A DNA stretch of 64,000 nucleotides, taken from the NCBI GenBank assembly GCA_020152595.1, contig JAIGNY010002222.1, positions 207,501-271,500 of the forward strand. The letters are read 5' to 3'. This document shows positions 11,197 to 48,467 of this stretch, piece by piece. The translations under genes were made by a program, and so were the position numbers. This stretch comes from Chiridota heheva. Lineage: Eukaryota; Echinodermata; Holothuroidea; Apodida; Chiridotidae. The notes below the pieces were generated by a model that searched no databases, was not told where the DNA came from, and saw only the letters and a list, made by a program, of their open reading frames with translations. Every line of letters begins with the position of its first letter. Position 1 is the first letter of the stretch.

Positions 11197-11623
11197 ATGT
11201 TTTTGATCAGGAGATGTCATGCAGTCAGTTCTCTTTGTTCTGTTCATTTGTCTGCTCAACACTCTGCCAGAAATCTTTCATTGTCCGCAAGGTCTATATC
11301 CAGTGTGTCTCAAAAAACCACCACATCTTCCACTTTTAAGGAATTAGATGGAAACATAGACCCTTACAAGTCAAGCCTGATCAGAACTGCAAAGCTTAGT
11401 GATGAACAGGAAGAAAAATATTATGAAATACTCAAGCGAGCAAAACAAGGGGGAAGCCCAAGGTCCCACGAAATGCATGTTAAAAAGAACAAAAAGATTT
11501 TTGCTCGTGAAAGAATAAAGATGATGTTAGATCCAGGAACGGAGGAAGACTATTTAGAGATTGCACCATTTGCAGGTCTTGACATGGATTATGGTGATAT
11601 ACCTGCTGCAGGGATAATATCTA
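11197..11623 (+). CDS. MCCC2-like exon 1 (presequence and N-terminal region)
   Basis: Encodes residues 1-142. The start ATG gives a basic, hydroxylated N-terminus ([12 protein letters not shown]...) with no acidic residue for about 45 residues, typical of a mitochondrial presequence. The later part has [14 protein letters not shown] and [11 protein letters not shown], the usual helix and ATP-independent carboxyltransferase N-domain entry of the family. The donor is A|GTAAGT, phase 1. A pyrimidine-rich CTCCTTGCAG ends about 40 bases before the ATG and may be a 3' splice site of a 5' UTR intron; no upstream exon was identified. Confidence 0.88.
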
Positions 11624-29600: not shown

Positions 29601-32600
29601 TAAGGGACATGTGGGTGGTGGATGTTGTGGTGGGATGTCATCTGGAATGTTGGGTAGAAGATGACATGATGATTGATAGGAGGGTGGGATATCATGTGGG
29701 ACAGGTTGAGATTGTATGTAGGACAGTGTGGGATGGTTTGTGAGTGAGAATGTGGGATGGTTTGTGAGCGAGAAAGTGGGATGGCATGTTGGACAGTGTG
29801 GGTTGGTATGTGCCAAATGGTGGGGTGGCATGTGGGGGCAGGGTAGAGTGGTATGTGGTGGAATGGAAAATCTGGATTTCAGGTGTGATTGCATGTAGTA
29901 CAGTACATAGGGTGTGAGATGGCATGTGGAACAGAGGATGTGACGGCATGTGGGACAGAGGGTATGTGGTGTGTTATCAGCGGCAAGGGATCAATATTTT
30001 CATACATTATAGCACTATTGTTTTGCATAAATTTGCAATTTACACTTGCACACTTTTCATGCTACTTCATGTTTTCTTAAATTGCAAGCTAGATCACAAT
30101 CCAGAATGTAGGCCTGGGAATGTGTGAGGGTTGGGGCTGGTATGAGTTGGGGAGTGGTAAAAGATGAATAATCTAATGAAAACTAACAGACAATACCTTT
30201 TCCACATTCAATAATGGTTTCCAGATGAATAAAGGGTAGTTTGGTAAATTACTAAAAAAATAATTGCATCATGCCACAAGGATGCTTTGTAATATTTCAT
30301 TGACATAGGCAAATCAGGGCCTCTTCTTTTTTTTGTGTTTCACTGGATAGAATTAAAAGAGGTGTATCAGTCATAAAGAGTGCTTTTACATGTTTTGTGA
30401 ATTACCCGGTTCAGGGTTTTTTTTGTCTTAAGATATCTAGGATAACTCCCAAGATATTTTGAGGCTTGTAGTAAAATTTGCAAAAATTTAAAACAAGAGG
30501 AAAAGGTAAATGTATCTTAAAAATCTCATGTAATTTGAAATTAATTGCCTCTACTTTTCCCATTACGGCATACGTCCCCCAATAAGCCCTTTGTTTATGC
30601 TTGCTTCGAATAGTCGAGCATGCTGTCCTTCCAACAGATTTAGTTAACCTTTTTTAATCTGATTTTTGTTTACAGATTCTTGCCAGACTAGTCGATGGTA
30701 GTAGATTCCTTGAATTCAAGACCTTGTATGGTCCATCACTAGTAACAGGTTTTGCCCATATCAAAGGGTTTGTATTTTTTCTTTTCATCACCATGCTTAG
30801 AATTCTGTTGTAGTCATTGTGAGAGGTAACATAAGGAATTTAAATTACTAGCAGGTATTTTTCATTTTTCTTCAAATTTTGACTTTCATCAAATTCCATT
30901 TAGGAGGTTTGTTGTGGAGCTTTTAACTAAGTGTTAGTGTGTATGAGAGTTCAGGCCTAAGCAGTGCCCAGCTGTCAATCTATCACAGCTGTGATCATTA
31001 AGATATGGAAATTATCTGAATCAATTGGCATTTAGCAAGGCAAGGCAAGAGTAAAAGCTAAAAAGGTATTCCAGTTTTAGCTTTAAGTGGAGTTCGTAGA
31101 CAACCAATGCAGGAATTGAAAATTTAACTTTGAATTTCAAAAAAGACATTTCTGATTTCTGAGTTTAAAGGTCATCCACAGACCATTAGACTAGATCTAT
31201 ATGGTTGTAATAATAAACAGATTGCTTCAGTTATTTTGTTTCAGATTGATGAAGTAGACTGTAGATTCTAGTTTATTGATTCGAGATTCTAGTTTATAGA
31301 TTCTTTGTAGATTCTAATTTAAAATTGTTTCTGAAGTTAACAGATTATCACAGTTGCTTAAGTATTTTCTGCCAGTTATCCACAATTAATGTTTTGTGAT
31401 TTATTCTTGATCAAGTGGTTGCAGTGTTAAGTATGTCCCTAATTATCCTGCAAAATTAGATGAGTCTTAAATGTTAGTTCATAAAGAACACCTTAGTAAT
31501 GAGTAAGGAACATGGAATAGTTGAGTCATAGTGATAGATTCTAACCTTTGAAGCAGAGTTGTTGACTCGAGTCACTGACTTGGACTCGAATTTGACTTGA
31601 ATCACATTTTTTACTTGTGACTTTCAAACAAATGGCTTGCCAATTGACTTTACTTTTGAATAAGTGAACTGTGACTTAACATGATAACAAGGGACTTGTG
31701 ACTTGACCTTACTTGAACAATATGACGTGGTGACAACTCTGCTTTGAAGTTTACTGTTAACATAGTGACACATTCTATCCATTCCATCAACAGTCACCCG
31801 GTTGGCATTCTTACAAATGACGGCCATATCAGTGCAGACGCTGCTCTGAAGGGTGCCCATTTTATTGAGCTCTGTCAGCAGCGGGACATTCCTCTCATCT
31901 TCCTTCAAGATGTGACCACTGAGGAAGATTGGGTGGACCCGGAAGAGGCAGCGGAGGTCTTGAAAGCTCGAGCAAAGATGATGAGAGCCACAGCATGTGC
32001 GACAGTACCAAAGTTGACTGTTTTAATAGGGAATAGTTTTGGACCAAGTAACTATTTGATGGTGAGTGTTTTTATAACGTTAAGCTTTGAAGAAGTTCAG
32101 GTAGTTTGCATCCTTTTCTTAACCTCTGTTTCCATGGTACAAGTTGATGAGAGTCAGTTTCTTTCCCAAAACAGGAAACCAATCTGTCGCAGTCTTGAGT
32201 TCAGTCAAGTCATATCAAAGCTTTAGCACTTTCTTCACCATTTTCTTCCTTCTTATGTATTCTTTCATATGAAATGAACAAGACAGTTAGAGGCAGAGAT
32301 AAAGCATCCATAACATGATATTTGCAAATACACCAGAAAATCAATGAAGTGTCCCAGCTAGCAATTTTGCCAATTGTAATGGTGGTATTCAAGCCTGATG
32401 TGCAGTAGGTCCACTATATAATACTTCCTCTTGGAGTTCTCAGTGTGTAATGGTTGTGTGTGTTACCAATATTAATGTTTCACTTTAGATTTCCAAATTA
32501 TACATGAATTGCAAATGTCACTTCATCCTCATGTGTCTTACAGAATGAAATCTATTACAGGATGAAATCTATCTTTCTTATTGTCGTCATTTTTCAGTGT

Positions 32601-35600
32601 GGTAAAGCTATGGAACCCAACTTCCTGTTTTCATGGCCTCAAGCTCGGCTTAGTATGTTCTCACCAAAACAGACTGCTCAACTCTTAAGTCAGGTAATTT
32701 AGTTTGCTGTTGCTTGTTTAGTCTATTATGGAAACTTGGCATCATCATCCTCACTTTCTTAACAATTATTAATGTATTTAAAAGAGAGTTTATTTAATTT
32801 TTTCATTAATTAGATTATTCTTCCTCCAACTTTCTTCAGGTGGTATATTATGAATATCTTCCTAGATTCAGTTTTTTGACATATCCCATGATTTTTAAGC
32901 CACAAAATCAGAGGACAAAATATGATAGAATACATAAAGACTTTAAGGCATCTGAGGCTATGACATCACAACTAGTGTGATTTCACTTGTTATACACTAA
33001 TGATACCTAACTTTAAGCTTAGATATCTCCTTAACGGAATAAGAATTTTGAACGCTTTCTTTACCATTTTGTTTCTTTTGAAGTCCTCTTTCATATAAGA
33101 TGGACATGCTTGACCTCTGAACTAATTCTTTAATGTGATTTTTCATGGAGAACTGCTTCTTTATTGTCATTGTCTTGTATTGCCTCTACCATTCATGTCC
33201 AACATCTTCCACTTATATACAGCATTAACCATTAATAGCTGGGTAATCAATTCATTTTTTACTTCAACTTTTACTCAATTTATTCTTCGTAAATTTTCAA
33301 CTAATTCTTTTTTCAAAAGTCTTAAATTAATTCAGTCTTTACAAGCTCTGAAATAATATTTTATAACTCTCTAGCCAAATTGTTCAAAATTATTTATCAC
33401 CTTTTAAATGTACATAACTGTTTAAGGAATTTATTCTTTACAAATTTGTATTTAATTTATCTATTCTTTATCAATTTTAACCAATTCATTCGTAATTTTT
33501 TTTCTCAAAATAATTCAGTCTTTACAAGTCCCTGATTAATACTTTAATCTTTGTCTAGCCAATTTGTTGAAAATCATTACCAATTAATCTTCAATTAAGC
33601 TGTTAAGAAATGTACAAGTTCTTACTTAATTCTTTATAACCTATCAGCCAAATTGTTCTGAACAATTCACTTACTAGTTTATCCTTTAACCCTTACTCTA
33701 CCAGAGCATTTGAGATTACAAGTGTTATTTTACGGAACTTTTTGGAAAGGGGGCTTTTTCACAAATTTATCATCATTTTCTACTGTAATAAGTTTATCTT
33801 ATATGAAAGCTAAGACTTTAAACTTTACGTTGGTTTGCATAATTATCTTATGAATTATGCAAATTTATGCAAATGAGGTCATTAATTGATATTATTAGAT
33901 GTCCTAAAACTGCTATCTTTGTGATATTCTGCTTTCTTGTGGCTAATTAGAAAACAAATTATTAATAGAATTTATGAATTGTTGAAAGAAGGACCTTTCA
34001 TTTGATAGTACTCTTGATTTTTTTGGAGCAAGAAAAAATTCATACGTCAATTTCAATTTTTTTGACCTTTTTTGGCCTAAAAATTGACCTCTAATTTTGC
34101 CAATGATCTATCTGATAGGATTTGGCACTATGCTTTTCTATAAACATGCATTGTTTCTTTCTATGATGCACAAAACTAATATGATATAAAAAGGAAATGT
34201 TTACACCCAAATGTTAATTAAGATTTTATGCAAATGATATGCAAATTAGCTAATTTACCTCATTTATTATGCACAGGCTTGAAATTTTCAGTTTATGAGC
34301 CAATTTTAGCCATTGGAAGCTTTGAAAATACTTATATTTATTCAGGATATACTGAAAGTCTTGTAGAAACTTACTTTAGTTGATTCCTGTAGGAATTCTT
34401 GGTGAAAAGGTACTCAAAAATGGTTCAAAGCATCAGTAATCATGTTGACGTTGCCAAACTTGGAATCCGTCAGTGAGTTGGTACCGCATCCTTCACAGAA
34501 ATACAATTTGAACTGTTTCCAAAAAAATTTAGGGATTGGGGTGGGGTGTTAGTTCTGGCTTAATAATATTGGGAGGGGGAACCAGGGAAATGCCCCCTTC
34601 TCCCTCAAAAAAAAAAAAAAATGGCCCTCTTCCAGGATCTAGATTCCTTCAAAGAAAATAACTTTCTCCTACATGGGACAGCTCGGCCCCCACCATTGGT
34701 ATCTTGCCCCAACATGTCTCTCTTTCCAACAACATGGGACCCTTTCCCCTTAAAATTTTTAATCCTACTCCACTGCACCACAACCTCACAACATGTAATC
34801 AAGAATTCGCGCAATAGGTATATGAACACTGTTGCACTACAAATCAAAGACTGATCTGTAAAGTTTCATCTAAAATTACTATAATAAAGACAATTCATGT
34901 TAACCACATCGGATTTTAGTGACCCATTTACTTGTTTATTATCATTACAAGTAAATAATCCCAGCTAAATTACACTGCTTTTGCTTAATTTTGAACGAAT
35001 CAGAACTAACATTAGCTATGCCTAACGTTAAGCCTAACGAGTAAAGTTAGTAAGCATCAAGTTTGAAAAATGCACTCGCGATTTTAGAATTTGAAAAAAT
35101 CATTTTACCTGGTTCTGATCATCTTTAGGCCTCTTCTGGGTTGGGTCCAGGTACTAAAAGATCTCCATCACTGGCGATAGCCTTCTGACCTTTCCAAATC
35201 CTCAGTTTCACTTTTAAACAAGATTTGGAAGACACATTCTTCTGTAGCCTCAACGTAAATGTCAAAAAAAATCTAAAAATAAGTTGAGTGACGTAGCTAT
35301 AAAACTTTTTAACAACGATCGAGGGGTTATGTCTTTTATTGCAGCAATCCATGTGAAAGCACGTTGTTTATGCTACAGAATGGTTTTTGAAACTTCATAC
35401 GATATAGGGGTGGATCACACGATTTTTTAACATAGAGGGTCAAAAAATTACCAAAAATCACACAATTTTACATATTTTACAAATTACTTAGAAATAATGA
35501 CCAGGTATGAGCAAAATGTGATTAGATTTGAATAATATGACTTGTCTATATAGTATATATAAAACTAAAATATCTAAATTTATTTTCTAAGCAATTTGTT

Positions 35601-38600
35601 TTAAATTTTTCAAAAATATGCATTTTTCGGGACATTTTAAACAAAAAGGTAAATTTCTGAATATTTGGACAAAATTTGCCGAAAAAATGTGAGTACAGAC
35701 CCCCAAAACAAATACAATTTCATGAAAGATCTTTCTGAAATCTTTGCAATGAAACTATTTGCACCCCTATAAAAGTTTGGTGAGGTCCGGATTTAATTTT
35801 TGGAAAAAGGTAGTTTTAAAACGGCGATAGTATTGCTGCGTGGTAGAGTAAGGGGTAACTCTTTTAGCAACTTATTCTTCACAACTTTCTAGCCAATTTA
35901 TTCTATATAAGACTTACTTCAATTAAATCATTTCAGGTTATAACCTTTTAGCCAATTTGTTCTATATAATTCATTTACCAAGTTATTCTTTATATCTCTT
36001 AAAGCAACTTATTAATTTTTTACAAGTCATTAGGTAATTTTTTATCAATTTTTAACCAATTTGTTCTGCATAATTCAAACCAATTTCTCTTTTTAAGCAA
36101 TCTAATTTTTACAATAATTTAAGCAATTTATTCTATATGATACTTTACCCAATTTATTATTTACACTTTTCTAGATGTCAGAAAACCCCATTTTAGAAGA
36201 GGCATTAATTCCTGGGCTTGAAGAACAGAGCTCAGCATGGCACTCAACTTTTAACTGTTTGGATGATGGCATTATACTACCTCAGGACACCAGAAGAGTA
36301 AGTTTCTCTCACAAGCTTTCATATTTCATAACTCTAATTAGCATCTTTGTGGTATATTATGAGGTTATTGCACAAGCTAATTAAATTCGGTTAATTTGAT
36401 CTTGAAGTTAAAATTGAAAGGATTAGGATTAGGAAGTGAAGCAAGTCAATTGTAGGTGTAAGAAGACTAAAGATCTATGGAGAGGTAGCAATAGTTTAGG
36501 CTTAATTGAAAGAAAATAGGCTATAAACTATCGAAATAGGCATGAAAATAGGCTGTAAACCATGAAAATAGGCTATGAACCATGAAAATAGGCTATCCAT
36601 GAAAATAGGCTATAAGCCATGAAATTAGGCTATAAACCATGAAAATATGCTATAACCAATGAAAATAGGCTATAAACCATGAAATTAGGGTATAAACCAT
36701 GAAAATATGCTATAAACAATGAAAATAGGCTATAAACCATGAAAATAGGCTATGAACCATGAAAATAGGCTATGAATCATGAAAATAGGCTATGAACTAC
36801 AAAAATAGGCTATGAACCACAAAAATAGGCTATGAACCATGAAAATAGGCTATGAACCATGAAAATAGCACCCCCCAAAGAAAAATCATTGAAATTGGTT
36901 ACAAATTGACCATCGACCATTTTAAAGTATTTATGATTTTTGAGCCTCTCTATAATAATTTATGCAAATTCTATTGTAATTTTGTGACATCACAACAAGA
37001 TAACCTATGAATTTTCTGATGTTCACCTATTGTTTTTCCATTCTTCACCACCATTCTTTGAATGGGAGCAGTTGAATATGACCATCAGATTCTGAATTTC
37101 AATGTACCCTCTATCAAAATTTAGCAGGGAAAAAAAGTAATGATTTTAGTGATTTTTAATTGAGGACAAAAATTTTTTAATTGAGGACAAAATTTTATAG
37201 AATTAAATTTAAGATTTTGAGCTTTTTTCAATCTAACTTCTAACTTGGAGTGCTACTGCAGTAATTTAAATTATTTTCTGGTGAACATAAAATCTTTGTC
37301 CATATACCTTTAGAAGCAAGTGGATAATTGAGTGTGTCTTTTTTGCACATTTGTGAGAATTTCACTAAAAAATTTCACAGAAGTGATTATATCTTGCACT
37401 TATTTGTCATTATTTTCAAACAGGTACTCTGACCTAAATACTTTCAAACTTTCAGGTTTAAGTGCTAGTAGGACCTCAAAGGAAGTAGTAATATAAGCAA
37501 TGCAAGCATTAGGGTTGTCATGATATGTCAATTATCATGCTGACCGTGGTATTAAACATACCCTGACCATGGTATCAAACCTACCCTGACCATGGTATCA
37601 AACATACCCTGACCATGGTATCAAACATACCCTGACCATGGTATCAAACATACCCTGACCATGGTATCAAACATACCCTGACCATGGTATCATACATACC
37701 CTGACCATGGTATCAAACATACCCTGACCATGGTATCAAACATACCCTGACCGTGGTATCAAACATACCCTGACCATGGTATCAAACATACCCTGACCAT
37801 GGTATCATACATACCCTGACCATGGTATCATACATACCCTGACCATGGTATCATACATACCCTGACCATGGTATCAAACATACCCTGACCATGGTATCAT
37901 ACATACCCTGACCATGGTATCAAACATACCCTGACCATGGTATCAAACATACCCTGACCATGGTATCAAACATACCCTGACCGTGGTATCAAACATACCC
38001 TGACCATGGTATCAAACATACCCTGACCGTGGTATCAAACATACCCTGACCATGGTATCAAACATACCCTGACCATGGTATCAAACATACCCTGACCATT
38101 GTACCAAACATACCCTGACCATGGTACCAAACATACCCTGACCATGGTATCATACATACCCTGACCATGGTATCAAACATACCCTGACCATGGTATCAAA
38201 CATACCCTGACCATGGTATCATACATACCCTGACCATGGTATCATACATACCCTGACCATGGTATCATACATACCCTGACCATGGTATCAAACATACCCT
38301 GACCATGGTATCATACATACCCTGACCATGGTATCAAACATACCCTGACCATGGTATCAAACATACCCTGACCATGGTATCAAACATACCCTGACCGTGG
38401 TATCAAACATACCCTGACCATGGTATCAAACATACCCTGACCGTGGTATCAAACATACCCTGACCATGGTATCAAACATACCCTGACCATGGTATCAAAC
38501 ATACCCTGACCATTGTACCAAACATACCCTGACCATGGTACCAAACATACCCTGACCATGGTATCATACATACCCTGACCATGGTATCAAACATACCCTG

Positions 38601-41600
38601 ACCATGGTATCAAACATACCCTGACCATGGTATCAAACATACCCTGACCATGGTATCATACATACCCTGACCATGGTATCAAACATACCCTGACCATGGT
38701 ATCATACATACCCTGACCGTCGTATCAAACATACCCTGACCATGGTATCAAACATACCCTGACCATTGTACCAAACATACCCTGACCATGGTACCAAACA
38801 TACCCTGACCATGGTACCAAACATACCCTGACCATGGTATCATACATACCCTGACCATGGTATCATACATACCCTGACCATGGTATCATACATACCCTGA
38901 CCATGGTATCAAACATACCCTGACTGTGGTATCAAACATACCCTGACCATGGTATCAAACATACCCTGACCATGGTATCATACATACCCTGACCATGGTA
39001 TCAAACATACCCTGACCATGGTACCAAACATACCCTGACCGTGGTATCAAACATACCCTGACCGTGGTATCAAACATACCCTGACCGTGGTATCAAACAT
39101 ACCCTGACCATGGTATCAAACATACCCTGACCATGGTACCAAACATACCCTGACCATGGTATCAAACATACCCTGACCATGGTACCAAACATACCCTGAC
39201 CATGGTATCAAACATACCCTGACCGTGGTATCAAACATACCCTGACCATGGTATCAAACATACCCTGACCATGGTACCAAACATACCCTGACCATGGTAT
39301 CAAACATACCCTGACCGTGGTATCAAACATACCCTGACCGTGGTATCAAACATACCCTGACCATGGTATCAAACATACCCTGACCATGGTATCAAACATA
39401 CCCTGACCATGGTACCAAACATACCCTGACCATGGTATCAAACATACCCTGACCGTGGTATCAAACATACCCTGACCGTGGTATCAAACATACCCTGACC
39501 GTGGTATCAAACATACCCTGACCGTGGTATCAAACATACCCTGACCATGGTATCAAACATACCCTGACTATGGTATCAAACATACCCTGACTATGGTTCA
39601 TGAAAGCAAAAAATGAATGAGATTTTAACTGAATACTTGCAGCATATCTGGCTTCCTTTCCTTAGCTCTTAGGTTTTATGGGATAAATGAGATCTGCATG
39701 CTGAAAACCTAAGCAGTTTTCTAAAATAATAATCATAACATAGATAATATTGCAAAACGGTGAGTATAATATCTTTGTCCATGATAATTGATATCTTGTT
39801 TACCCATATCGTAACAGCCCTAGAAAGCAATGATATTCCAGGCTGTAGTTGATTTTGAATAATCATGTCAGACAGATCTTCAGTGCTGTTGCATGAAGTA
39901 TTCAACTATGCTAGGAACCCAGAATAATACCCTTTCAAATCTTGGTTGAATATTTCGAGGAAGCCTCTATCAGAATTCTACTTTACTTACAAGAGGTGAT
40001 ATCATGTTTACTCATGATGACATGCTTCTTTTTAACAAATAAACAAACAATTTTTGAGTATCACTAGCTCTTTAAAACTCTGTTACAAACTAGTGCAGTA
40101 GGTTTATTCCTGAACCTTTTCATTCTGCGATAGTAAATATCAGTACTTACTTATTTAGGTCGTGTTGCTCCTTGTGGAGCATAGGCCATCAAAAACTCTT
40201 CTCCACTTCACACAATTCTGGGCTGCAGTCTCTATCTTTCTCCAGTTATGTGACATCTTTTTCTATCTCTCTCCTCCAGGTGTTCCATGATCGACCTCTT
40301 TTCCTCCTATAGAAAATTTTATAAGAATTATTAGAGCTATAATAATTTTTTCCTCTTAAAGATTTTTTCTGTTTTGTTTATTTGCTTTCAAGTTTACCTT
40401 ATATTTGTCTGCCAAACAACCTATCACATAGTCTTATTTTTTTAAAGTGTTTCAGGTACCATTTCATTTCTATTTAATTGCTCTTGTTCGCAAAGGTGAC
40501 CAAATTGTTATATTTACTTCAAGTTATACCTTACCTTCCATGCTATAATTATGCAATCTGGTCACACGACCTGATTCTAACGCACTTCTAACCGACCCTA
40601 AAAAACGCAGTAACCAGCCAAGCCCTGACCTCCATAATACCTCTGTACCACCTCACTCTTTTTCAGCGCGTTGTTGTCACTAACATCGCTGAAAACTGGT
40701 CATTTTTATTTTATTAATAATTAACCTTTCTAACTCTTTTCTCTTCGGCAGCTTCTACCTGGAGGGTTTTTACGCTGCCCGTTCTCATCTGGCTTGCCTT
40801 TTCCAGTCTTCCGAGATAAGGGTGAGGTAACAATGGGTCCGAGATTTCTTCGGCCGACCTACACGACTTTACCCGTGTAGCCTACACTTAGAAAAGCGGG
40901 TTTTTGTCTCCATTCGTACAAAGCGAGTGGCTAGTTCGAGAGCGTCCTACTCTCGTGGTGGGTGTTTTAGGTCCTAGAGCACCAGTTGTGCCTGTCTAGG
41001 GGACCTCTCGCCCCGGGATTTAGTCTTTTTCTCCCTTAGCCCCACCCGCCTCAAGGTGACCCTAGCGTTATACTATGTATAGTGTTTAGTACGTTAGGAT
41101 ATTTCAGTACACCTTCTCGTATGCATTAGGCCAATTTCCTTTTTCGATTTTGGCGCATGCGCATTGGGTCGTAGTCACCGTTGGGTGTTCGAGGGGTCGC
41201 CCTGTAACAACTCCAAGGAGCTACAGTTGTTACTAGCGAGCTTATTTTCGTTTTCACGTTAACAGCATATGAATATTTTTATTTTTCTTACACAGATTTG
41301 AGAGAAAATATTTAATTTTCAGGATTGAAATTGGGGTGTTGGAGAGACCGTGGGTGGGTCTCTCCGACGTCCTATTTACAGGGAAAATGATCTTTCCTTT
41401 TTATCTTTACAGACCTCAAGTACACAGTGGTTAGTGTTTCCCACGCTACCCCGGCGCTTATAAAGTCATTACGTTGGATGCGTTTTCTCGGGTTTCTAAA
41501 GTTTTTCAGATAGGAATTTTTCGTTTAAATTTTTTTTCTGTTAAAGCAAATGCTATGCCTCGTCTCTCTTTAGCGTGTCCGTAAGATCATAGTTACGTTG

Positions 41601-44600
41601 CCGTATTTATGTTTGTACGCATGGACATACGTTCTTCTCTTAAGAAATTTTTTCAGTGAAAAGTTTTTTCTGTTTAAGAAAGTTTTGATGTTCTGTTTAG
41701 ACTGCTATGCCTCGTCTCTCTTTAGCGTGTCCATAAGATCATACTTACTTTGCCGTATTTGTGTATGTACGCATGGATATATGTTCTTCTCTTTTCAGAT
41801 ATAAAAAAGAAATTTACTGAGAGGGTTACGCTCTTAGAGGCGTTGCGCCTAGACCGTAACGGTAAGAGAGAGAGAGAGAGAGATAACCTCTTAGGCGCTA
41901 CATGCGTCGCCTAAGTTGTAGTAAGATGCTATTGACGGGTCGAAAAGGTTCCGTTGGGCGGTCCCAGACGGTTCCGCAGCTCTATTTGCGGGCATCATGC
42001 GGTTCCGGGGGCCGGTTCCATAAACACGATTCCATAAACACGGTTCCATACGGTTCCGTTGGACGGTTCCGCAGCCCTATTTGCGGGCATTGTACGGTTC
42101 CGTGGGACGGTTCCATACGGTTCCGGGATCCATACGGTTCCGGGATCCATACGGTTTCGCGGCCTGTTGTTACGGGGCGGACGGTTCCATTGGACGGTTC
42201 CGTGATCCATACGGTTCCGCGGCCCGTTGTTACAGGGCGGACGGTTCCATTGGACGGTTCCGTGATCCATACGGTTCCGCGGCCCGTTGTTACGGGGCGG
42301 ACGGTTCCATTGGACGGTTCCATACGGTTCCGCGGCCTGTTGTTACGGGGCGGACGGTTCCATTGGACGGTTCCATACGGTTCCGCGGCCCGTTGTTACG
42401 GGGTGGACGGTTCCATTGGACGGTTCCATACGGTTCCGCGGCCCGTTGTTACGGGGCGGACGGTTTCATGGGACGGTTCCATACGGTTCCGCGGCCTGTT
42501 GTTACGGGGCGGACGGTTCCATTGGACGGTTCCGCGGCCCGTGTTTACACGGGTCCGTATTTAACGGGTTAACGTACATCGCATGCGGTTTAATCGTTAT
42601 ACGCCCACTAGCTACAAGCTACGTGGTCAGGTGACAGGTGACATTTTTGACAAGAAGTATAGCATTGACAGCTATTTTTCTTCTTGGTCCCGTAGCCATT
42701 AGCTACGCAGTTCCACAGCTCGTGTGAACGCAATTAAGACTGTCTACGTTGAGCGTTACAAGTTCCATATTTATTTTCACCAGTATCATGGACATGGAGG
42801 ACAGGTCCCCAAGTGTCGATGTTTTTACACACCCAGGATGTCCCGTGATGCGTAGCGTGCAAACGCTTCTTTAAATTACGCTCCGGTGACATCCATCTCA
42901 CGTGTTACGCGTGCAGATTATGCTGCGAGTCAAATCCCTGTACTCTTTGCAGCGATTGGGATCTAGCGGCGTGGTCGGAGCACAGACTCCACCGCGACCG
43001 GTACTTTCAAAGAGCAGCGGAGAAAGTGGAGAAGCGGACGGTCTGATAGGCCCTCTTCGTCTTACCCCCACCGCCACCGCCACCCAGGTCCAAAGCCAGG
43101 GAGGCGGGGCGCCCGCCCACTCTCAGCGGGCGCCTCTTGAAAGACGTACACCGTCACGGTTAATCCGGAAGTATAGCATTGAGACAGCTATTTTTCTTCT
43201 TGGTCCCGTAGCCAACGGCTACGACAGTTATACGGTTCCACGGCCCATGTTTACGGGTCCGTGCACGGTTCCACGGTCAGTGTTTTACGGGTCCGTCACG
43301 GTTCCATTGGACGGTTCCGCGGCCCGTGTTTACGGGTCCGCACGGTTCGACACGATTCCACGGTCCGCGTTTACGGGTCCTTTCGCTTCCATTGGGCGGC
43401 TCCAGTGAGCGGAACTTATCTTTAATGGGATAACATACACTGTACGGTTCACCCGGTTATACGCCCACTAGCTACTACGCTATGTGGTCAGGTGACAGAT
43501 GACTTTCTTTACAAGAAGTATAGCATCACGACAGCTATTTTCTTCTTGGTCCCGTAGCCATTAGCTACGCAGTTCCACGACTCGTGCGAACACAATTAAG
43601 ATTGTCTGCGTTGAGCATTACCGTTCCGTAAATATTTTCACCAGTATCATGGACATGGAGGACAGGTCTTCGAGTGTCGATGCTCTACACACCCATGATG
43701 TCCCGGCGTAGCGTGCTAACGCTTCTTTGATTTACGCTCCGGTCACATCCATCTCACGCGTTACGCGTGCAGATTATGCTGCGAGTCCATTCTTGGTCTC
43801 TTTGCAGCGATTGGGTTCAAGTGGCGTGGTCGGAGCACAGACTCCACCGCGACCGGTATTTTCAAGGTGCGACCGAGAGCGTGCAGCTCCAGTGTTCGGA
43901 TGCGTACAGCTCCGTAGTTTTGTAACGGGATATCGTACACTGTACGATTTACCCGGATATGCACCCGCTAGCTACGAGCTATGTGGCCAGGTGACAAGTG
44001 ATAATCTTCACAAGAAGTATAGCGCCGTGAGAGCTATTCTATTCATGGTTCCGTAGCCATTAGCTACGCAGTTCCACGATCATGTAAACATCATTAATAC
44101 GATTATCCGCGTTGAACGTTACATTTCCGCAATTACTTTCACCAGTATCATAGGCACGAAGGACAGGCCTCCGAGCGTCGGTACGTTACGCACCTCAGAG
44201 GTCCCGCTATGAATAGCGTGCAAACGCTTCTCTAGACCGTACGGGCCTGTACGACTTCAGAGTTTTTGCAACGGGATAACGTACACTGTACGATGAACTC
44301 CGAAGTTGAGTCCGCTAGCTAGGAAGCTACTTGGTCATAGCTATGCTGTTCCACGGCCGTGTAAACTGCCTCTGTAGGATTTTCCGCGTTGAACGTTACA
44401 GTTCCGCGATGTTTTGCGCCTATATCATCGCCGACACGAAGGGCAGGTCCCTAGTGTCGGTGCGTTCGCGCCTTGACTGTCCTGCGATGCGTCGCATGTA
44501 AACGCTTCTTAGGTTGCGCTTTGCTGTTATCGACATGTTCAAACCCGTGTACACCGCTGTGGTCCTCGGTTCCGCGATGGGACGGTAGGCCCACAAGAGG

Positions 44601-47600
44601 CGGACGCTCACGGGTCTTACGTGAGTTAGTACCCTTTTTACGGCTAGTTGTAGAGCCATTGGATTACTTGCACGGGTCCATTAGGGTCCGTGCGGCTCCG
44701 GTAATCCGTTCCATACAGCCCCACGGCTTGTTTTCACGGCCCGTAAGGGTCCGTAACACAACTTGGCGGCTCCGTCCGGGGCATGGGATGACGTTCGGGT
44801 CCGTGGTGCTGCTTAGTTCTACAGCAAGGAAGCATACAACGACGTCACACCCGATAGTTTCGGAGATCTCCACGTCCGTGTGAGCTGACTTGGTGAGATT
44901 TTCGCGTTGAACGCCACGGTTCCGCATAGTTTTTCACCAGTTTCATGGACACGAGGCGAGTCCCCGTTTGTCGATGCACGTCACGCTCCCAGGATGCGAG
45001 CGTGTTAGCGCTTGCTCGGGTTTCGAGGCCTAGCACTCGGGTGATAAGATTTCCTTCTTTACGGGAGGCATACCATCACGAGCTATTCCCTCCGTGTTAC
45101 GTAGTTCCACGACCGTTCAAACTACTCTGAATGTGATTCTTGCGTCGAACGAGACCTTCGGCTCACATTCTACAGATATTAGCGCGGTTTCGCACAACGT
45201 CACGATAAACCTGGGTAACGGAACGGGATATTGCAACCGTTAGCGCGTGTTGCAGTGTTCGCGGTCGTTTTTCTTGCTGGGGCGTTTTTAGCGTTCGACG
45301 GCAGTCCCCACGCGTAGCCGCCGGCTCCGCGGCTCCGTAGTGATTTTATACAAAGCGGAGTTAACGGCCTATACCAGCAGCGGCTGTGTGGTAGAGGACC
45401 AGTAGCCATGAACTACAGAGTTCGCGGCCGTTTCTCTTACAGGGACACGTACTGAGTCGGACGGTAGTCCCCTCTTCCCCACGCAGCTACCGGTTTCGTA
45501 GCTCCGTGATGAAACAAACTCAGTTTACGACTCGTATAGCTTGCGTGGCACGTGAACTCCTCTGTATTCCTTACTGCCTCAGTATATATATTTTAACTAT
45601 TCTCAACGGGAACGCGTACATCTTCCCTACGCGTAGCCACTTACTCTGTGGCCCCGTAGTGAATAGAGGTATAATGAGATAACGACTCACGTTACAGGTG
45701 TAGTACGTTCACGCTATCATGGACCTAGACGGTCCTTTTGTACTGATAGCTACTACGTTCGGGACACGTACCAGTACCAGTTGTCCCCCTCGCGTAGCCA
45801 CGAGCTTTTTGCTCCGTGGTGCACAGAGACATAGTTGGCGGAGGACTCGTGGTTTTTACTTGTCATGCTGACGCCTTTGTAGACCCATAACGGATCTATA
45901 ATACTTAACGGGGTTGCATACTTTGTACGGCGTAAGTCCCCAGTAGCCACGCCGCTTTTCAGCTCCATGGTGCAGGGTGTTTAACGGAATTAACGGTCCG
46001 TGTAGTATACACAGGACGTCACCTCTTTCGTGATTTCTACCCCAGTGCTGGGGTTTATGACTTATACGGTTGACGAGTACGTTACCCCTACTTGTCAATA
46101 TTAACTCCATGAAGGATATTTTTCTTGACCATAGGTGGCCTTTTGATAGACAACCTTACGTTTGGGGTAGCTATTACCAACAACGCACGTATGGTTCATT
46201 CCATACTTTAACACCTTACAGCTGCTTCCTTGCGGTTTTACGGCCTGTTACTTAACTGCCCGTACAGACATACGGTTTCGTTTTCTCTACCGAGCCCGTA
46301 GGCTCCACGGTTTCAAGGTTGTTACTATCGTGTAATGCGTTAACACTTTCTCCAGTCAACTTCTTAGACAAGTTTCGCTGTTGATAGGCGTGGCCTGGAG
46401 CTACGCGGTTCAACTGCTACAGTTTTCGGACCCGGCAGGTGCCGTCGACTATGTAGTACGGCTCCGTGGTCTTACGACCCATGCCGTCTCACAGCTACAT
46501 AGCCTTACACGGTTGGCAGCCCTTCTTGTATACATTTTATATTAACGGCCTGCCTTTTATTTCGCTAGCCTTTGATTTTTGTTCAGTAGGTTTCAACAAC
46601 CTTTGCTCAGGGTCGGCAGTTTTTTCTGGACTGCGGATGGTGTCGTTCAGTCCCTCCGCTTTACACGTTCAGTCGGTGGTCACCCCCTTTGGTGGTGGTG
46701 CGGGTGCTCCCACCTGGTGTAAGGACAAAGTTTTCACCCGTCCGATATCACCGTCGGTGCCGACGGAGGCTTCTTGATCAAGGTCAGGGCACTTTTCTTG
46801 TGACCCCTTCTGTCGGAAACTTGGACGGGTACTTGACCTTTTTCGACAGGCAGAATGCCGGGGGTTTTTCGTTCACCTTTTTACCGCTAGTGCTGAGCGA
46901 GGCTTTTCAGTTTTGCGCCACGGTTGTGGTCTCCTTTTCGGACAGAGAGGTACGGACTCCACGAGTTCTGGATTCGTTCCTCTTGTCTCGGCGCAGGACG
47001 AACTTTGGCTGCTCAAGACCTTGCAGGCTTTACGTACGAGCCTCGGGTCAGGGACGATTTTTGTCTCTTTCCGGGCTCCGCAGACTGCATCTCAGTCCCG
47101 AGCGCGCGTTTGATGGTGTGGCCTTGGCCGCCTTTCCTCGGCGTAGCATGGCTTTTCTGAGGGGTTGTTCACCCCCTCTCCGTTGTGGAGGTGGGCCCTC
47201 TCTCAAGCTTGGTTCCGTCATGAGCTCTGGGATAACTTGCAGCTATCCACGGGGTTTTTCCAGTGGGGTCTACGGTCTTTGACTCACGACCACTGGTAAG
47301 TTCGGAGATCTCTTCGTAGTGTGTCATGTGACATTTTCCTCCGATAGATCGTCCAGTGGCTTTCTTTTAAAGTAGTCTGAACTGTTTATAGAACGGCGCG
47401 GTATGCACTCGGGTTCGAGGCATAACCTCTTTTCACGGGATCTCTGCGCCCGTTCGGGAAAACGCCGCGGTTTTTCTCTTGTTTTTGGTCTGACTCACTT
47501 TTCGACGTTCGTGTTCCCCTGCTAACTTTAGCTCTTACGCGGTTATGCGCTAACGAATTTTTCCCTTGTCCGGGATTTCTTCAATTCGTTTTTGTTGGTA

Positions 47601-48467
47601 CACGCTTCGTTCCCGATCCTAGTTTACTCGCCAGTTCCGTCTCGTGGAAGAATCCGGTGTGACTTGTGGCGTTTTTTGTGGACACTTTGCTGTAATTGTG
47701 TCCAAACGCTCTTCCGGTTGGCTTGTTTTTCTGGGCTTTTCGCTCAGGTTCTTTCAAGGTTTGCCTCCGTTACTGTCAACGAATGGTGCCTTGTTCGGTT
47801 TGACTGTACCTCGCCGTGGTTTACTATGTTTTAGTTCTTCCCACTCTTGAGGTCTTTCATCCTTCCGAGGAGAAGGAATTTTGTCCTTTAAACATGATTC
47901 GATTCGTGTGAATTTTCGTACCAGCCATTAAAAAAAATATATAAAAAAATGTGCGGCGACCTGAACTCCCTTCCTTCCTATCCTCGGTTGCAATCTGATT
48001 GCATAATTATAGCATGGAAGGTAAGGTATAACTTGAAGTAAATTTAACCCGCTAAGCGTAGCGGGGATATTTACGAGAGTTATACTTACCTTCCATGCAT
48101 CCCGCCCGCCTCCCCTCTCGTTCAGGCCTCGGTGGAATGTTGAGTGAGGTGGTACAGAGGTATTATGGAGGTCAGGGCTTGGCTGGTTACTGCGTTTTTT
48201 AGGGTCGGTTAGAAGTGCGTTAAAATCAGGTCGTGTGACCAGATTGCATAATTATAGCATGGAAGGTAAGTATAACTCTCGTAAATATCCCCGCTATGCT
48301 CAGCGGGGTAAATTTATCAAGTCTTACCTAGTGAAGCTTCTGATATCTTGCCATCTTCGTTTTTTCTTTAGATTCTTGCTATGTGTCTCAGCATAATATC
48401 ACAGCAAAAATATTGGCACTCAGAAGCTAATCAATCAAAGGGTGAATTTGGTGTGTTCAGAATGTAA
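11197..48467 (+). CDS. MCCC2-like mitochondrial carboxyltransferase, ten exons (full span)
   Basis: Joined exons are 11197-11623, 13238-13416, 14252-14332, 25229-25407, 26373-26568, 30676-30767, 31794-32061, 32598-32693, 36175-36297 and 48372-48467: 1737 nt, 578 residues, frame kept at every GT-AG junction. The family is the beta subunit of methylcrotonoyl-CoA carboxylase, which carries out the carboxyl-transfer step of leucine breakdown in the mitochondrial matrix. Seen here: a basic, Ser-rich presequence (residues 1 to about 45), [40 protein letters not shown] (235-247), [20 protein letters not shown], an NYLMCGKA motif, DDGII-x-x-x-DTRR and a terminal GVFRM; the family usually ends FGIFRM. 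Length is close to the usual 560 or so. Residues 426-436 lack the GF-x-x-G loop expected after the FLQ-x-(I/V)T motif, GGSYGAGNYGM has become [11 protein letters not shown], and a segment of about 20 residues after the C-domain Gly-rich region is missing. It is a divergent paralogue; enzymatic activity is uncertain. Confidence 0.9.
11793..12140 (+). mobile_element. tRNA-headed SINE in intron 1
   Basis: The head has an A-box-like GTAGCTCAAGTTGGTAGAGT and B-box-like GGTTCAAGGCTC, at tRNA-like spacing. The body follows to about 12140 and differs from the other SINE bodies in the window. It is not a functional tRNA gene: the 3' acceptor arm does not pair. Confidence 0.65.
12296..12475 (+). mobile_element. 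SINE body fragment (headless), intron 1
   Basis: Near-identical over about 175 bases to the body of the SINE at 54794-55060, starting GCCAGTGCACCACAACTGG and ending GTAATTGTGTGTTCA. The tRNA head is missing, so it is 5'-truncated. Confidence 0.8.
12480..13237. other. Remainder of intron 1
   Basis: AT-rich intron sequence with no supported feature other than the exon-2 acceptor. Confidence 0.5.
13238..13416 (+). CDS. MCCC2-like exon 2
   Basis: Residues 143-202. Acceptor TGAATAG, donor CAG|GTAAGT. With the one base carried from exon 1 it reads [12 protein letters not shown], then [17 protein letters not shown] and [10 protein letters not shown]. These are N-domain CoA and active-site elements of the MCCC2 family and are well conserved. 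Confidence 0.9.
13890..14130 (-). mobile_element. SINE copy (family C), antisense, intron 2
   Basis: Contains, inverted, the stretch TGTGTCCTTGAGCAAGACAC, then the CTCCAGTCCA and GTTAACCTG segments shared with the copies at 14545-15110 and 53324-53580. It lies antisense to the gene, between exons 2 and 3. Confidence 0.7.
14252..14332 (+). CDS. MCCC2-like exon 3
   Basis: Residues 203-229, 27 whole codons, acceptor TTTTTGGCAG and donor CAG|GTACGT. It encodes [20 protein letters not shown], matching the family segment QADVFPD...GR-FYNQA directly after the SGGAYLP motif. Confidence 0.9.
14545..15110 (-). mobile_element. SINE copy (family C), antisense, split by a MITE
   Basis: The body (14560-14770) matches the other family C copies. 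The tRNA-like head lies beyond the MITE at 15065-15110, reading GTAGTGGCTCAGTGGTTAAG on the minus strand. The two halves are separated by the element at 14772-15064. Confidence 0.7.
14772..15064. mobile_element. MITE inserted in a SINE
   Basis: About 293 bp with short inverted ends (GGCATAGCCAGG and CCTGGCTACACG) just inside direct repeats TTGCATAT (14764-14771) and TTGCACAT (15065-15072), an 8-bp target duplication with one mismatch, as for hAT elements. It has a long G-tract near its left end. Confidence 0.65.
15310..15870 (+). pseudogene. RNase H-type LINE, 5' part (reverse transcriptase N-terminal)
   Basis: Open frame 15321-15875 carries [49 protein letters not shown] and [18 protein letters not shown], the fingers/palm start of an APE-type LINE reverse transcriptase. 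The endonuclease region is absent (5' truncation). The reading stops at the antisense RTE insertion and resumes at about 19190. Confidence 0.88.
15866..19188 (-). mobile_element. RTE-like LINE, nearly full length, inserted in another LINE
   Basis: One minus-strand frame runs 18904-15878 (about 1,009 codons) with only three in-frame stops, at about 17987, 17297 and 16664. The N-terminal part is an APE endonuclease ([49 protein letters not shown]). The reverse transcriptase follows ([69 protein letters not shown]) and then a C-terminal [13 protein letters not shown] segment. GVRQGC-LSP and the C-terminus fit RTE-like LINEs. It ends just after the stop in a short ATTG-type tail shared with the target. 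Confidence 0.9.
19190..21390 (+). pseudogene. RNase H-type LINE, 3' part
   Basis: Continues the 15310 element: [28 protein letters not shown] (frameshifted), a damaged polymerase motif [10 protein letters not shown] where YADD is expected, [12 protein letters not shown] and [13 protein letters not shown]. An RNase H domain follows ([17 protein letters not shown] and [19 protein letters not shown]), then a C-terminal [14 protein letters not shown] zinc-type motif. The 3' end is GCCCTCATCAAACAAACAAC, a CAAA-rich tail. Several frameshifts; dead. The RNase H suggests the I/Nimb/Jockey group. Confidence 0.88.
21610..23995 (+). pseudogene. CR1/Jockey-type LINE ORF2, 5'-truncated
   Basis: Starts in the endonuclease tail ([21 protein letters not shown]), then the linker [13 protein letters not shown], a frameshift near 22065, and the [51 protein letters not shown], one TAA at 22828, [50 protein letters not shown] and [17 protein letters not shown]. 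The C-terminal [10 protein letters not shown] and LKDWNALP motifs precede the stop at 23928. A T-tract of about 28 and a GATTCAGATTCAG end follow. One frameshift and one stop: recently dead. Confidence 0.9.
24000..24500. other. Intron 3 sequence with a repeat end
   Basis: No gene. 24318-24420 (TATCCCCTTGCTAATGAAG, then a GTCCGTCTGTCTG run) resembles 26697-26830 (TATCCCTTCACCAACAAAG), so both are probably ends of one dispersed repeat family. Confidence 0.45.
24505..25085. repeat. Minisatellite, 22-bp unit (GGCATGTGGGACAGGGTGGG)
   Basis: About 25 imperfect copies of a unit read as GGATGGCATGTGGGACAGGG. Its strong 22-bp periodicity makes all frames look open on both strands. A related array lies at 29590-29970. 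Confidence 0.9.
25229..25407 (+). CDS. MCCC2-like exon 4 (N-domain oxyanion motif)
   Basis: Residues 230-288 plus two bases. Acceptor ACTTGCAG, donor AA|GTAAGG. It carries [37 protein letters not shown] and LHC, the best-conserved block of the family. It lies 10.9 kb from exon 3 across a transposon-filled intron. Confidence 0.92.
25633..25736. repeat. Perfect 52-bp tandem duplication, intron 4
   Basis: The block starting ATGTCTTCGTAAATTGC and ending TTGCAAAT occurs twice, at 25633 and 25685, with no mismatch seen. It lies in intron 4. Confidence 0.95.
26045..26325 (+). mobile_element. RNase H-type LINE 3' end fragment, intron 4
   Basis: Resembles 21070-21390 of the RNase H-type LINE: CTCAATTCCATTGCTGATTTC against CTCAATTGCTGAG, a GATAAAAT-like stretch, and an end CCTCACCAAGCAAAC against CCTCATCAAACAAAC. 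Diverged and 5'-truncated. It ends about 50 bases before exon 5. Confidence 0.5.
26373..26568 (+). CDS. MCCC2-like exon 5
   Basis: Residues 289-354. Acceptor TCTTTTTCAG, donor AAG|GTATGT. It begins [13 protein letters not shown], matching the family motif KSGVSDHWALDD, and continues through the inter-domain linker ([15 protein letters not shown]...YDAKEL). Confidence 0.9.
27180..28010. repeat. Diverged repeats of about 110-160 bp, intron 5
   Basis: The phrase TGTGCATATTAATT followed by TTTGCATAACAATGA recurs at about 27268, 27390, 27565, 27647, 27768 and 27885 with much divergence, mixed with T/G homopolymers at 27518-27560 and 27618-27640. Confidence 0.6.
28785..29125. repeat. Tandem repeats with TTTCTTTAAAAACTGTAG core, intron 5
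   Basis: About sixteen degenerate copies of a 17-20-bp unit with TTTCTTTAAAAA plus ACTGTAG or TACAG. Confidence 0.85.
29256..29541. repeat. Two tandem copies of a 142-bp unit, intron 5
   Basis: 29256-29398 and 29400-29541 align along their whole length (AGTAAAATATTTGTCTC to GGAAGCAGAAAATAC) with several substitutions and small indels. Confidence 0.9.
29590..29970. repeat. Minisatellite related to the 24.5-kb array, intron 5
   Basis: Diverged copies of a GTGGGATGGCATGTGGGACA unit. The right flank TTATCAGCGGCAAGGG matches TTATTAGTGGCGAGGG flanking the intron 3 array. Confidence 0.85.
29975..30675. other. End of intron 5
   Basis: No gene seen. AT-rich, ending in the TTTGTTTACAG acceptor of exon 6. 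Confidence 0.5.
30676..30767 (+). CDS. MCCC2-like exon 6
   Basis: Residues 355-384 plus two bases. Acceptor TTTGTTTACAG. It encodes [19 protein letters not shown] and [10 protein letters not shown], the start of the C-domain. The donor GG|GTTTGT is a weaker GT site, but it is the only one that keeps frame into exon 7 (G-HPVGIL). Confidence 0.88.
31554..31741. mobile_element. hAT MITE with 8-bp target duplication, intron 6
   Basis: A 188-bp element with inverted ends CAGAGTTGTT and CAGAGTTGTC, flanked by identical CTTTGAAG at 31546-31553 and 31742-31749. The inside is made of GACTCGAGTCA/GACTTGTGACTT variants. The right edge of the duplication is only 44 bases from the exon 7 start. Confidence 0.92.
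31794..32061 (+). CDS. MCCC2-like exon 7 (altered C-domain active-site loop)
   Basis: Residues 385-474. Acceptor CATCAACAG, donor [39 protein letters not shown] and [13 protein letters not shown] match the family. After FLQDVT the expected Gly-Phe-x-x-Gly stretch is replaced by acidic [11 protein letters not shown], and the Gly-rich GGSYGAGNYGM is [11 protein letters not shown]. The reading frame is intact through the altered loop. Confidence 0.9.
32598..32693 (+). CDS. MCCC2-like exon 8
   Basis: Residues 475-506, 32 whole codons. Acceptor TCATTTTTCAG, donor [29 protein letters not shown] matches the family [21 protein letters not shown]. The family MGGEQAA is FSPKQTA here. Confidence 0.9.
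32779..33133 (-). mobile_element. MITE copy (truncated), intron 8
   Basis: Aligns in inverted orientation to the left two thirds of the MITE at 49936-50493, including the TIR inner segment ATCTCCTTAACGGAATAAG and the segment CTTTCTTCAGGTGGTATA. It lacks the other TIR. Confidence 0.75.
33220..33690. repeat. Low-complexity AATTTATTCTTTACAA repeats, left part
   Basis: Degenerate repeats of CAATTTATTCTTTACAA-like sequence. The same type continues at 35865-36165, so the 33692-35855 stretch interrupts one tract. Confidence 0.6.
33692..35855. mobile_element. Putative piggyBac-like non-autonomous element, intron 8
   Basis: About 2.16 kb with exact inverted ends CCCTTACTCTACCA and, inverted, CCCTTACTCTACCA. 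The left flank is TTAA; the right is GTAA, one base off. It sits in the middle of a low-complexity tract present on both sides. No transposase frame seen inside. Confidence 0.6.
35865..36165. repeat. Low-complexity AATTTATTCTATATAA repeats, right part
   Basis: Continuation of the repeat at 33220-33690 (CAATTTGTTCTATATAATTC units), running into the exon 9 acceptor. Confidence 0.6.
36175..36297 (+). CDS. MCCC2-like exon 9
   Basis: Residues 507-547, 41 whole codons. Acceptor ACTTTTCTAG, donor AGA|GTAAGT. It encodes [20 protein letters not shown] then [12 protein letters not shown], matching the family's KKFEEEG-x-x-YYSSARVWDDGIIDPADTR. About 20 residues normally present just before it (the KDQRAREGK region) are absent. 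Confidence 0.88.
36513..36868. repeat. Tandem array, 20-bp unit (GGCTATAAACCATGAAAATA)
   Basis: About seventeen copies, starting some 215 bases after exon 9. Variation is mostly at TATAAAC/TATGAAC and AAAATA/AAATTA. Confidence 0.95.
36870..37509. other. Intron 9 sequence, no feature
   Basis: AT-rich intron sequence. One short direct repeat (TTTTTAATTGAGGACAAAA) near 37156-37190. Confidence 0.5.
37510..39822. mobile_element. hAT-like MITE ends enclosing a satellite
   Basis: The left end TAGGGTTGTCATGATATG (37510-37527) and the inverted right end TAGGGCTGTTACGATATG (39805-39822) agree at 15 of 18 positions, and each is followed inward by TCAATTATCATG. AGGGCTG-x-x-ACGATA ends are like those of hAT MITEs. 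No clear target duplication was found. The 23-bp satellite fills most of the inside. Confidence 0.55.
37538..39597. repeat. 23-bp satellite array, about 90 copies
   Basis: The unit core is CCATGGTATCAAACATAC plus CCTGA. Variants are CCGTGG, CATACATAC and TACCAAAC. Marker CCATTGTACC occurs at 38096, 38510 and 38763. The order of variants over an 18-unit block (414 bp) is repeated exactly, so higher-order copies were made recently. Confidence 0.97.
40150..40325 (-). pseudogene. LINE C-terminal fragment, antisense
   Basis: The minus strand reads [19 protein letters not shown], a stop, then [15 protein letters not shown] and PMLHKEQH. This resembles the RGRP-x-x-W-x-R-x-x-EKD...DR-x-x-W-x-LV-x-ALCSTR tail found at the C-terminus of many APE-type LINEs. 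Short and broken. Confidence 0.55.
40523..40658 (+). repeat. DIRS-like left inverted terminal repeat
   Basis: Runs from TATACCTTACCTTCCATGC to TACCACCTCACTC and is repeated inverted at 48142-48277 with very few differences (for example GATTCTAAC against GATTTTAAC). Confidence 0.9.
41341..41365 (+). other. Strong hairpin in DIRS-like element
   Basis: GGAGAGACC and GGGTCTCTCC can pair around a loop of about six bases. It lies about 680 bases inside the left ITR. Function unknown. Confidence 0.5.
41551..41805 (+). repeat. Tandem duplication, period 152 bp, in DIRS-like element
   Basis: The block TGCTATGCCTCGTCTCTC... occurs at 41551 and 41703 with several differences over roughly 100 bases, including the shared GTACGCATGGA segment. 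Confidence 0.85.
42030..42540 (+). repeat. GC-rich 53/60-bp tandem array in DIRS-like element
   Basis: Copies share GCGGCCCGTTGTTACGGGG and GGACGGTTCCATTGGACGG. GTTGTTAC recurs at 42166, 42226, 42286, 42339, 42392, 42445 and 42498: two steps of 60, then four of 53. It makes several frames open on both strands; these are not taken as genes. Confidence 0.92.
42740..45010 (+). repeat. Amplified Gag-leader repeats in DIRS-like element
   Basis: A segment with GCGTTGA(A/G)CGTTACA, TTTTCACCAGTATCATGG, a GGACAGG-x-x-x-x-x-AGTGTCG segment and GCGTGCAAACGCTTCT recurs at about 42745, 43605, 44105, 44385 and 44895, each more diverged to the right. Between copies are short stem-loops of type GTAGCCATTAGCTACG. 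Confidence 0.8.
42870..43046 (+). pseudogene. DIRS Gag-like Cys domain (copy 1)
   Basis: Frame through 42903 reads [19 protein letters not shown], a second Trp four residues later (AAW), then a charged helix EKVEKRTV and a stop at 43044. Past the stop the same frame has a proline run and a basic stretch. A C-x2-C...NPC-x2-C-x2-W-x4-W pattern is seen in Gag-like ORFs of DIRS elements. A second copy at 43740-43870 has lost two cysteines and a tryptophan. Confidence 0.55.
45010..47990 (+). other. Uncharacterised interior of DIRS-like element
   Basis: Open frames such as 46689-47282 (197 residues) have no recognisable motif. Searches by eye for YLDD/LDDW, RNase H and HDLR/HTRY recombinase motifs found nothing. 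Modules with GTAGCC...GGCTCCGTAG stem-loops recur between 45250 and 45970. Confidence 0.4.
47995..48098 (+). repeat. DIRS-like internal complementary region
   Basis: The left half (47995-48043) is the inverse of the element's left end. The right half (48044-48098) is the inverse of its right end, including the GCTAAGCGTAGC hairpin-like stretch. The two meet at AAATTT, which marks both termini. Confidence 0.85.
48142..48277 (-). repeat. DIRS-like right inverted terminal repeat
   Basis: Inverse copy of 40523-40658. It continues rightward with a terminal segment (CCCCGCTATGCTCAGCGGGG, self-complementary) present also in the internal complementary region. Confidence 0.9.
48372..48467 (+). CDS. 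MCCC2-like terminal exon 10
   Basis: Residues 548-578 and stop TAA. A TTTTTCTTTAG acceptor joins phase 0 to exon 9, giving [13 protein letters not shown], which corresponds to DTR-VLGLSFSAAL in the family; the end is KGEFGVFRM, matching the family terminus DFGIFRM. It lies about 12.1 kb beyond exon 9, just 57 bases after the DIRS-like element. Confidence 0.85.
   Translation: MLAMCLSIISQQKYWHSEANQSKGEFGVFRM

Follow-up and report, generated by a model that had tools for sequence, protein, structure and literature searches.

The carboxyltransferase (CT) active site is composed of the N domain of one beta subunit and the C domain of another, and animal 3-methylcrotonyl-CoA carboxylase (MCC) is usually viewed as a fixed one-alpha, one-beta housekeeping enzyme. 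According to the accessible part of PMC5991677, Phe380, Gly421, Ala148 and Gly191 are candidates for the two oxyanions of the bacterial MCC beta subunit, and its substrate pocket could consist of Ala148, Phe163 and Gly191. In the accessible part of PMC4673880, MCC beta Phe191 blocks geranyl-CoA, the equivalent residue in geranyl-CoA carboxylase (GCC) is Gly162, and MCC carrying F191G acquires activity on geranyl-CoA and has essentially none on 3-methylcrotonyl-CoA; GCC is marked there by Gly at the specificity site and by the lack of a three-residue insertion, whereas MCC has Phe and the insertion. The MdcD-MdcE pair of malonate decarboxylase is CT-like in structure and works without biotin, and the MdcD oxyanion hole consists of two backbone amides (PMC5534430, accessible part). 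We found no description in the open-licence literature of an MCCC2 copy of the kind reported here; in the accessible part of PMC2790464, the single mention of MCCC2 is in a table that lists duplicated families in human.

Gene structure and family membership

The window analysed in this study is a stretch of 64,000 nucleotides from contig C2205 of the 1.1-Gb genome (3744 contigs) of the holothuroid Chiridota heheva. It contains a real and intact gene, other than the normal MCCC2, whose ten exons lie on the + strand between 11197 and 48467, have GT..AG at 9/9 introns and join in frame to encode an intact protein of 578 residues. A first-pass annotation of the window had likewise recognized a gene intact over ten exons, but gave its start as 31794, where exon 7 begins, so that its stated span takes in exons 7-10; the start of the gene is 11197. 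The exons and their main features are as follows.

Exon 1, 11197..11623, + strand: start of the CT N domain, preceded by the first ATG of the open frame and the MCC-type N-terminal helix region
Exon 2, 13238..13416, + strand: N domain; DSGGA at 13387-13401 (A197 kept) and KGGT (K162 and T165 kept)
Exon 3, 14252..14332, + strand: 18-residue stretch with Gly212 (14279-14281) at the position of the MCC specificity Phe
Exon 4, 25229..25407, + strand: GSCTAGGAY at 25244-25270 (G240 kept); 5' boundary in phase 0, 3' boundary in phase 2
Exon 5, 26373..26568, + strand: end of the N domain, and linker
Exon 6, 30676..30767, + strand: start of the C domain (ILARLVDGS)
Exon 7, 31794..32061, + strand: 12-residue stretch at 31915-31950 replacing TGFMVG..EAGG
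Exon 7, second change, 32029-32061, + strand: 11-residue stretch replacing GGSFGAGNYGM
Exon 8, 32598..32693, + strand: 11-residue stretch, then SPKQTA (32661-32678) replacing GGEQAA
Exon 9, 36175..36297, + strand: follows a 14-column gap relative to MCCC2; LDDGI..DTRR; end placed at 36301 by the guide runs
Exon 10, 48372..48467, + strand: C terminus GEFGVFRM and stop

The exon structure was compared with four runs of spliced alignment, guided by either the ordinary MCCC2 of the same genome (hereafter, own MCCC2) or human MCCC2, with a stricter or a looser intron penalty. The stricter penalty (2/4 runs) reproduced exons 2-8 exactly and exon 9 nearly so, and the looser penalty (2/4 runs) fragmented exon 5. 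Guide support within exon 1 starts only at 11422 or 11446, and in exon 10 it covers the last 24-41 bases only, the remainder being our reading of one open, spliceable frame. The first 50 residues of the protein include 6 K/R and 1 D/E, a composition that suggests a possible mitochondrial leader.

The first-pass annotation had claimed that the C-domain loop after FLQ-x-(I/V)T is replaced and that about 20 residues are gone before exon 9. Both changed stretches of exon 7 read as it had claimed, and the gap is real, although its size is 14 alignment columns rather than about 20; the replacement of GGEQAA in exon 8 is a further change, which had been missed. It is highly improbable that these changes reflect an artefact of the gene model or of splicing, in which another exon restores the canonical loop. 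An exon choice at this place is conceivable, since an intron interrupts own MCCC2 at the GF site. However, the changed loop is located inside a single exon with conserved flanks, and neither guide alignment nor a tblastn search of the window revealed a canonical copy or an exon that restores the usual loop, an eventuality that the first-pass annotation itself had raised, or that fills the 14-column gap. Furthermore, a search of the genome with Carboxyl_trans touched C2205 only at exons 2, 4 and 7. Micro-exons were proposed for the loop and the gap; they were without family likeness and were read as noise.

Several repeats occur in the introns and surroundings of the gene. In intron 3, LINE-like reverse transcriptase frames were recognized by eye at 15878-18919 and 21566-23928, one set per strand. 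Intron 9 includes a 23-bp minisatellite at 37540-39597 (around 90 copies, 96% matches) with repeated minus-strand open frames, and a pair of inverted repeats (40530-40658 and 48142-48270; 129 nt, 99% complementary) that lie 7.5 kb apart and resemble the two ends of a recent mobile element, or else a pair of small copies; the right-hand repeat ends about 100 bp upstream of exon 10. The region 41000-48000 has a G+C content near 0.5, compared with about 0.3-0.4 across most of the window, and harbors tandem arrays (53 and 106 bp) rich in GGTTCC. Two further arrays (59081-59520 and 60481-60869), about 1 kb apart, have a common 24-bp unit.

By its sequence, the encoded protein is related to MCCC2, the carboxyltransferase beta subunit of mitochondrial MCC, from which it has diverged while remaining intact. 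The Pfam domain Carboxyl_trans (PF01039) matches residues 98-560, across both domains, with 333.3 bits against a cut-off of 22.3, whereas the NCBIfam matches mmdA and AccA_sub are both far under their cut-offs. Among solved structures the highest score belongs to the MCCC2 chain 8j4z_J (478 bits, over residues 75-578), from a PDB entry that we take to be human MCCC2, and the bacterial chains 9yx0 and 4q0g (AccD1) nearly equal it, with 476 and 474 bits. The protein is 48-50% identical to own MCCC2, human MCCC2, the MCC beta chain 3u9r and AccD1, compared with 71% (363/508) between own and human MCCC2. The latter value, the introns and the LINE-like elements point to an animal genome. The N domain (0.50-0.53) is only modestly more similar than the C domain (0.45-0.48). 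An extended N-terminal helix of about 30 residues distinguishes MCC and GCC from PCC beta; the corresponding region of the MCCC2-like protein aligns partially.

Departures in the N and C domains

The comparison set consisted of 80 rows, namely 78 prokaryote proteins, own MCCC2 and human MCCC2. The prokaryote proteins derive from 80 loci, selected as the top 80 among at least 595 matches to two conserved patterns including NY-MCG; L050 and L075 had no frame with the exact motif and were left out of the column counts. When near-invariant columns are defined as those with one residue in at least 95% of the rows, 229 columns are obtained. The MCCC2-like protein departs at 71 of these 229, compared with 14/221 for own MCCC2, 7/220 for human MCCC2, 0/216 for L022 and 5/216 for L081. 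The departures are more frequent in the C domain (43/110) than in the N domain (28/119; p 0.015), and invariant glycines have been lost at 9/19 positions in the former and 2/20 in the latter (Fisher p 0.014); as both tests assume independent columns and address a claim that was derived from this very sequence, they are supporting evidence and not proof.

Active-site residues were transferred through chain 3u9r, with which 7/7 N-domain residues fit one offset and 4/4 C-domain residues fit an offset one lower. Both proposed N-domain oxyanion residues, Ala of DSGGA and Gly of TAGG, are kept as A197 and G240. The earlier statement that the N-domain motifs are preserved thus holds for DSGGA and GSCTAGGAY, but the domain is not untouched, as the changes at near-invariant columns above demonstrate; one of them is Lys to Phe at residue 269. 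Six residues are proposed to touch CoA, of which K162, T165 and L504 are kept and those at the E92, K96 and M507 sites are not; own MCCC2 also differs at the E92 and K96 sites.

A change absent from the first-pass annotation is that of the substrate-pocket Phe to Gly212. The three-residue insertion before the specificity site is nevertheless kept, and the protein therefore combines the Gly of GCC with the insertion of MCC. We infer that Phe191 of PMC4673880 follows human numbering and corresponds to the Gly212 position, because the accessible part of that paper states human numbering for the alpha subunit, the pocket Phe is residue 191 of the human protein, and the Pseudomonas-type locus L106 shows both GCC marks at this site. 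L106 was the locus used for this comparison, the frames obtained for L104, L105 and L107 being wrong. Gly212 adds support for an altered choice of substrate. The N half may still be able to bind an acyl-CoA, possibly of larger size.

In the C domain, the proposed oxyanion residues, Phe of TGF and Gly of GAGN, are replaced by E428 and S470. The placing of C-domain residues in the biotin/oxyanion site by the first-pass annotation agrees with the oxyanion residues in the accessible part of PMC5991677; that the C-domain pair serves biotin is our own deduction, as neither pair is assigned to biotin in that part of the paper. Both columns are fully conserved (1.0) among the 80 comparison rows, and Pro469 adjoins Ser470 in the MCCC2-like protein. 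The oxyanion contacts in MCC are backbone amides, so the Glu and Ser at these positions could still donate. A model of the exon-7 piece, folded with the 65 of 80 locus fragments that fit one text pattern, has a mean pLDDT of 80.8 and a strand-helix-strand-helix-strand order, with an unsure loop at the new acidic stretch, then a helix from Pro434, and pLDDT < 50 in the last nine residues, SFGPSNYLM. It is very likely that the C half can no longer accommodate carboxybiotin.

Carboxylase complement, age and origin

The genome search with Carboxyl_trans gave 17 exon matches on four contigs. One of these, C1072, carries the canonical second MCCC2 for which the first-pass annotation had advised looking, an ordinary gene (L015) with ITGFMVG and GGSFGAGNYGM in place. 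Own MCCC2 (G000:C1072, near 2395630) has a one-base frame break near an exon end, which is probably a sequencing or assembly slip, because the rest reads through; if the break is real, the MCCC2-like gene is the only intact MCCC2-type gene in the genome. By eye, C1642 looks like PCCB (GFLPG, GGAYDVM), and C3459 was taken as ACC, because an ACC-like biotin carboxylase exon, also recognized by eye, is present there. A biotin-carboxylase search produced five matches, distributed over four loci that were identified by eye as PC, PCCA, MCCC1 and ACC, and no spare alpha subunit was seen in this search, which proceeds exon by exon and can miss genes. With only these four loci, the CT beta genes appear to outnumber their available partners by one, as far as an exon-by-exon search tells. 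Searches for COX1 and for molluscan haemocyanin gave no hit, the latter with no signal from a control either.

The MCCC2-like gene and own MCCC2 have diverged at 81 of their 115 fourfold sites, close to the saturation level of 0.73, whereas second codon positions differ at 28% and about half of the residues agree. Fourfold sites near saturation together with a conserved protein argue for long constraint, and the earlier suggestion of selection rather than decay is borne out in this sense; the evidence speaks for past constraint, not for constraint today. Around 4.5% of the possible single-base changes to the coding sequence would create stops, roughly 79 per one substitution per site, and a neutral copy of the same age would be wrecked. 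A gene under relaxed constraint and heading to decay could account for the very long branch in every tree and for the many near-invariant sites changed in both domains. However, that expected number of stops and the persistence of ten exons with their splice sites make decay decidedly unlikely, although they speak less to a recent loss.

The MCCC2-like gene is most likely an old MCCC2 duplicate. The 5' boundary of exon 4 (after VPQ, phase 0) coincides with an own MCCC2 intron in both place and phase, the chance of at least one such match being 0.07. A second match (LHC|K, phase 2) appears if own MCCC2 is read across the frame break, and the chance of two is 0.003; in own MCCC2 as modelled, this boundary is four columns off. 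The shared introns lean towards duplication of an intron-bearing MCCC2. Acquisition of a bacterial AccD1-like gene, in place of duplication of the animal one, would fit the equal identities to AccD1 (233/467) and human MCCC2 (239/485), and the single intron match as modelled.

Trees were constructed with 39 of the 78 prokaryote rows. The MCCC2-like gene, which has an odd letter make-up, is unstable in its placement, and we have not relied on it. LG trees group the gene with both MCCC2 rows in a set of eight rows (98 for the N domain, 95 for the whole protein), and LG tests did not reject a clade with animals (p-AU 0.283, 0.501) or a clade with actinobacteria (0.233, 0.422). One mixture-model test favored the clade with actinobacteria by 24 log units (p-AU 0.976), whereas the free mixture-model tree united the three animal-type rows, with the MCCC2-like gene beside MCCC2 (98). 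Set against the second intron match and the grouping with MCCC2 rows in the free and LG trees, acquisition is an unlikely origin. No relatives were found in viral contigs with exons 7-8 as the query.

Possible working and comparison with known systems

The MCCC2-like protein is probably a partner or a repurposed protein rather than another carboxylase of the normal kind. The first-pass annotation had proposed a new-substrate enzyme, a regulatory partner of the alpha subunit or a pseudoenzyme, and the present results do not discriminate among these three. Since each CT active site joins the N and C domains of different beta subunits, mixed rings are the most likely arrangement, and our leading interpretation, tentatively held, is that this old MCCC2 duplicate is a pseudo- or half-active carboxyltransferase that works with MCCC2 in such rings and lowers or retunes MCC. 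To judge from the lost residues, a ring of the MCCC2-like protein alone would be unable to take the carboxyl from carboxybiotin. Mixed rings would contain the MCCC2-like protein, ordinary MCCC2 and the single MCCC1; the MCCC2-like N domain would there meet a working MCCC2 C domain, the reverse pairing would be dead, and MCC activity would be lowered or retuned. The uneven loss between domains and the lack of a spare alpha subunit would both be explained by a mixed ring. The changes at 28/119 near-invariant N-domain columns and at three of six CoA-contact residues, the small difference in identity between the two domains and the possible donation by Glu and Ser speak against this interpretation, and pseudoenzyme status itself is suggested by residue loss. 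A more specific form of the mixed ring, which we consider doubtful, is that the open-pocket, geranyl-type N domain provides the single MCC with a second active site for a larger substrate, with the reverse pairing silenced by the acidic loop; if so, one complex would perform two carboxylations, and the new subunit would be unable to act alone.

Two other functions were weighed against mixed rings. One is a functional carboxylase that acts on a different, larger acyl-CoA, has a biotin site that is rebuilt but active, and shares MCCC1. Gly212 may open the pocket as in GCC, and the exon-7 piece still models with regular strands and helices. However, the residues replaced in the loops show 99-100% conservation among the 80 comparison rows, although these are the best 80 of at least 595 matches, picked by pattern, and may under-sample odd relatives; in addition, a changed substrate needs no loss of the loops, because L106, with the same Gly, keeps TGFMVG and GGSYGAGNY. 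We regard this function as rather unlikely. Similarly improbable, and the boldest rival with a precedent, is a biotin-independent acyl-CoA enzyme, for example a decarboxylase, in which the C domain is rebuilt and the N domain does the chemistry. The biotin-free MdcD-MdcE (PMC5534430, accessible part) offers the analogy, both proposed N-domain oxyanion residues are kept, and the exon-by-exon search saw no extra biotin-carrying subunit, but MdcD is the counterpart of the N domain only by deduction, and no substrate is indicated. A constrained second beta-type subunit without half of the composite site would reveal either a ring retuned by a partner, as in our preferred interpretation, or an animal CT fold freed from biotin.

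The known systems resemble the MCCC2-like protein in different respects. MCCC2 (8j4z and the own copy on C1072) shares with it the N-domain oxyanion residues, an FGVFRM-like C terminus and, for the own copy, one intron exactly and a second by reading, and differs in that the MCCC2-like protein is without the C-domain loops, has Gly for the pocket Phe and shows the 14-column gap. The AccD1-type bacterial CT beta subunits (4q0g, 9yx0) have about equal identity and score, but keep the canonical C-domain loops. The geranyl-CoA carboxylase beta subunit (5ikl; GCC-like L106) has the same Gly at the MCC specificity Phe site, but L106 is without the three residues before this Gly that are present in the MCCC2-like protein, and its C-domain loops are kept whereas those of the latter are lost. 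MdcD-MdcE has a CT-like fold and performs acyl chemistry without biotin, a likeness of working only and not by sequence, and differs in consisting of separate subunits and in having an acyl-carrier-protein substrate.
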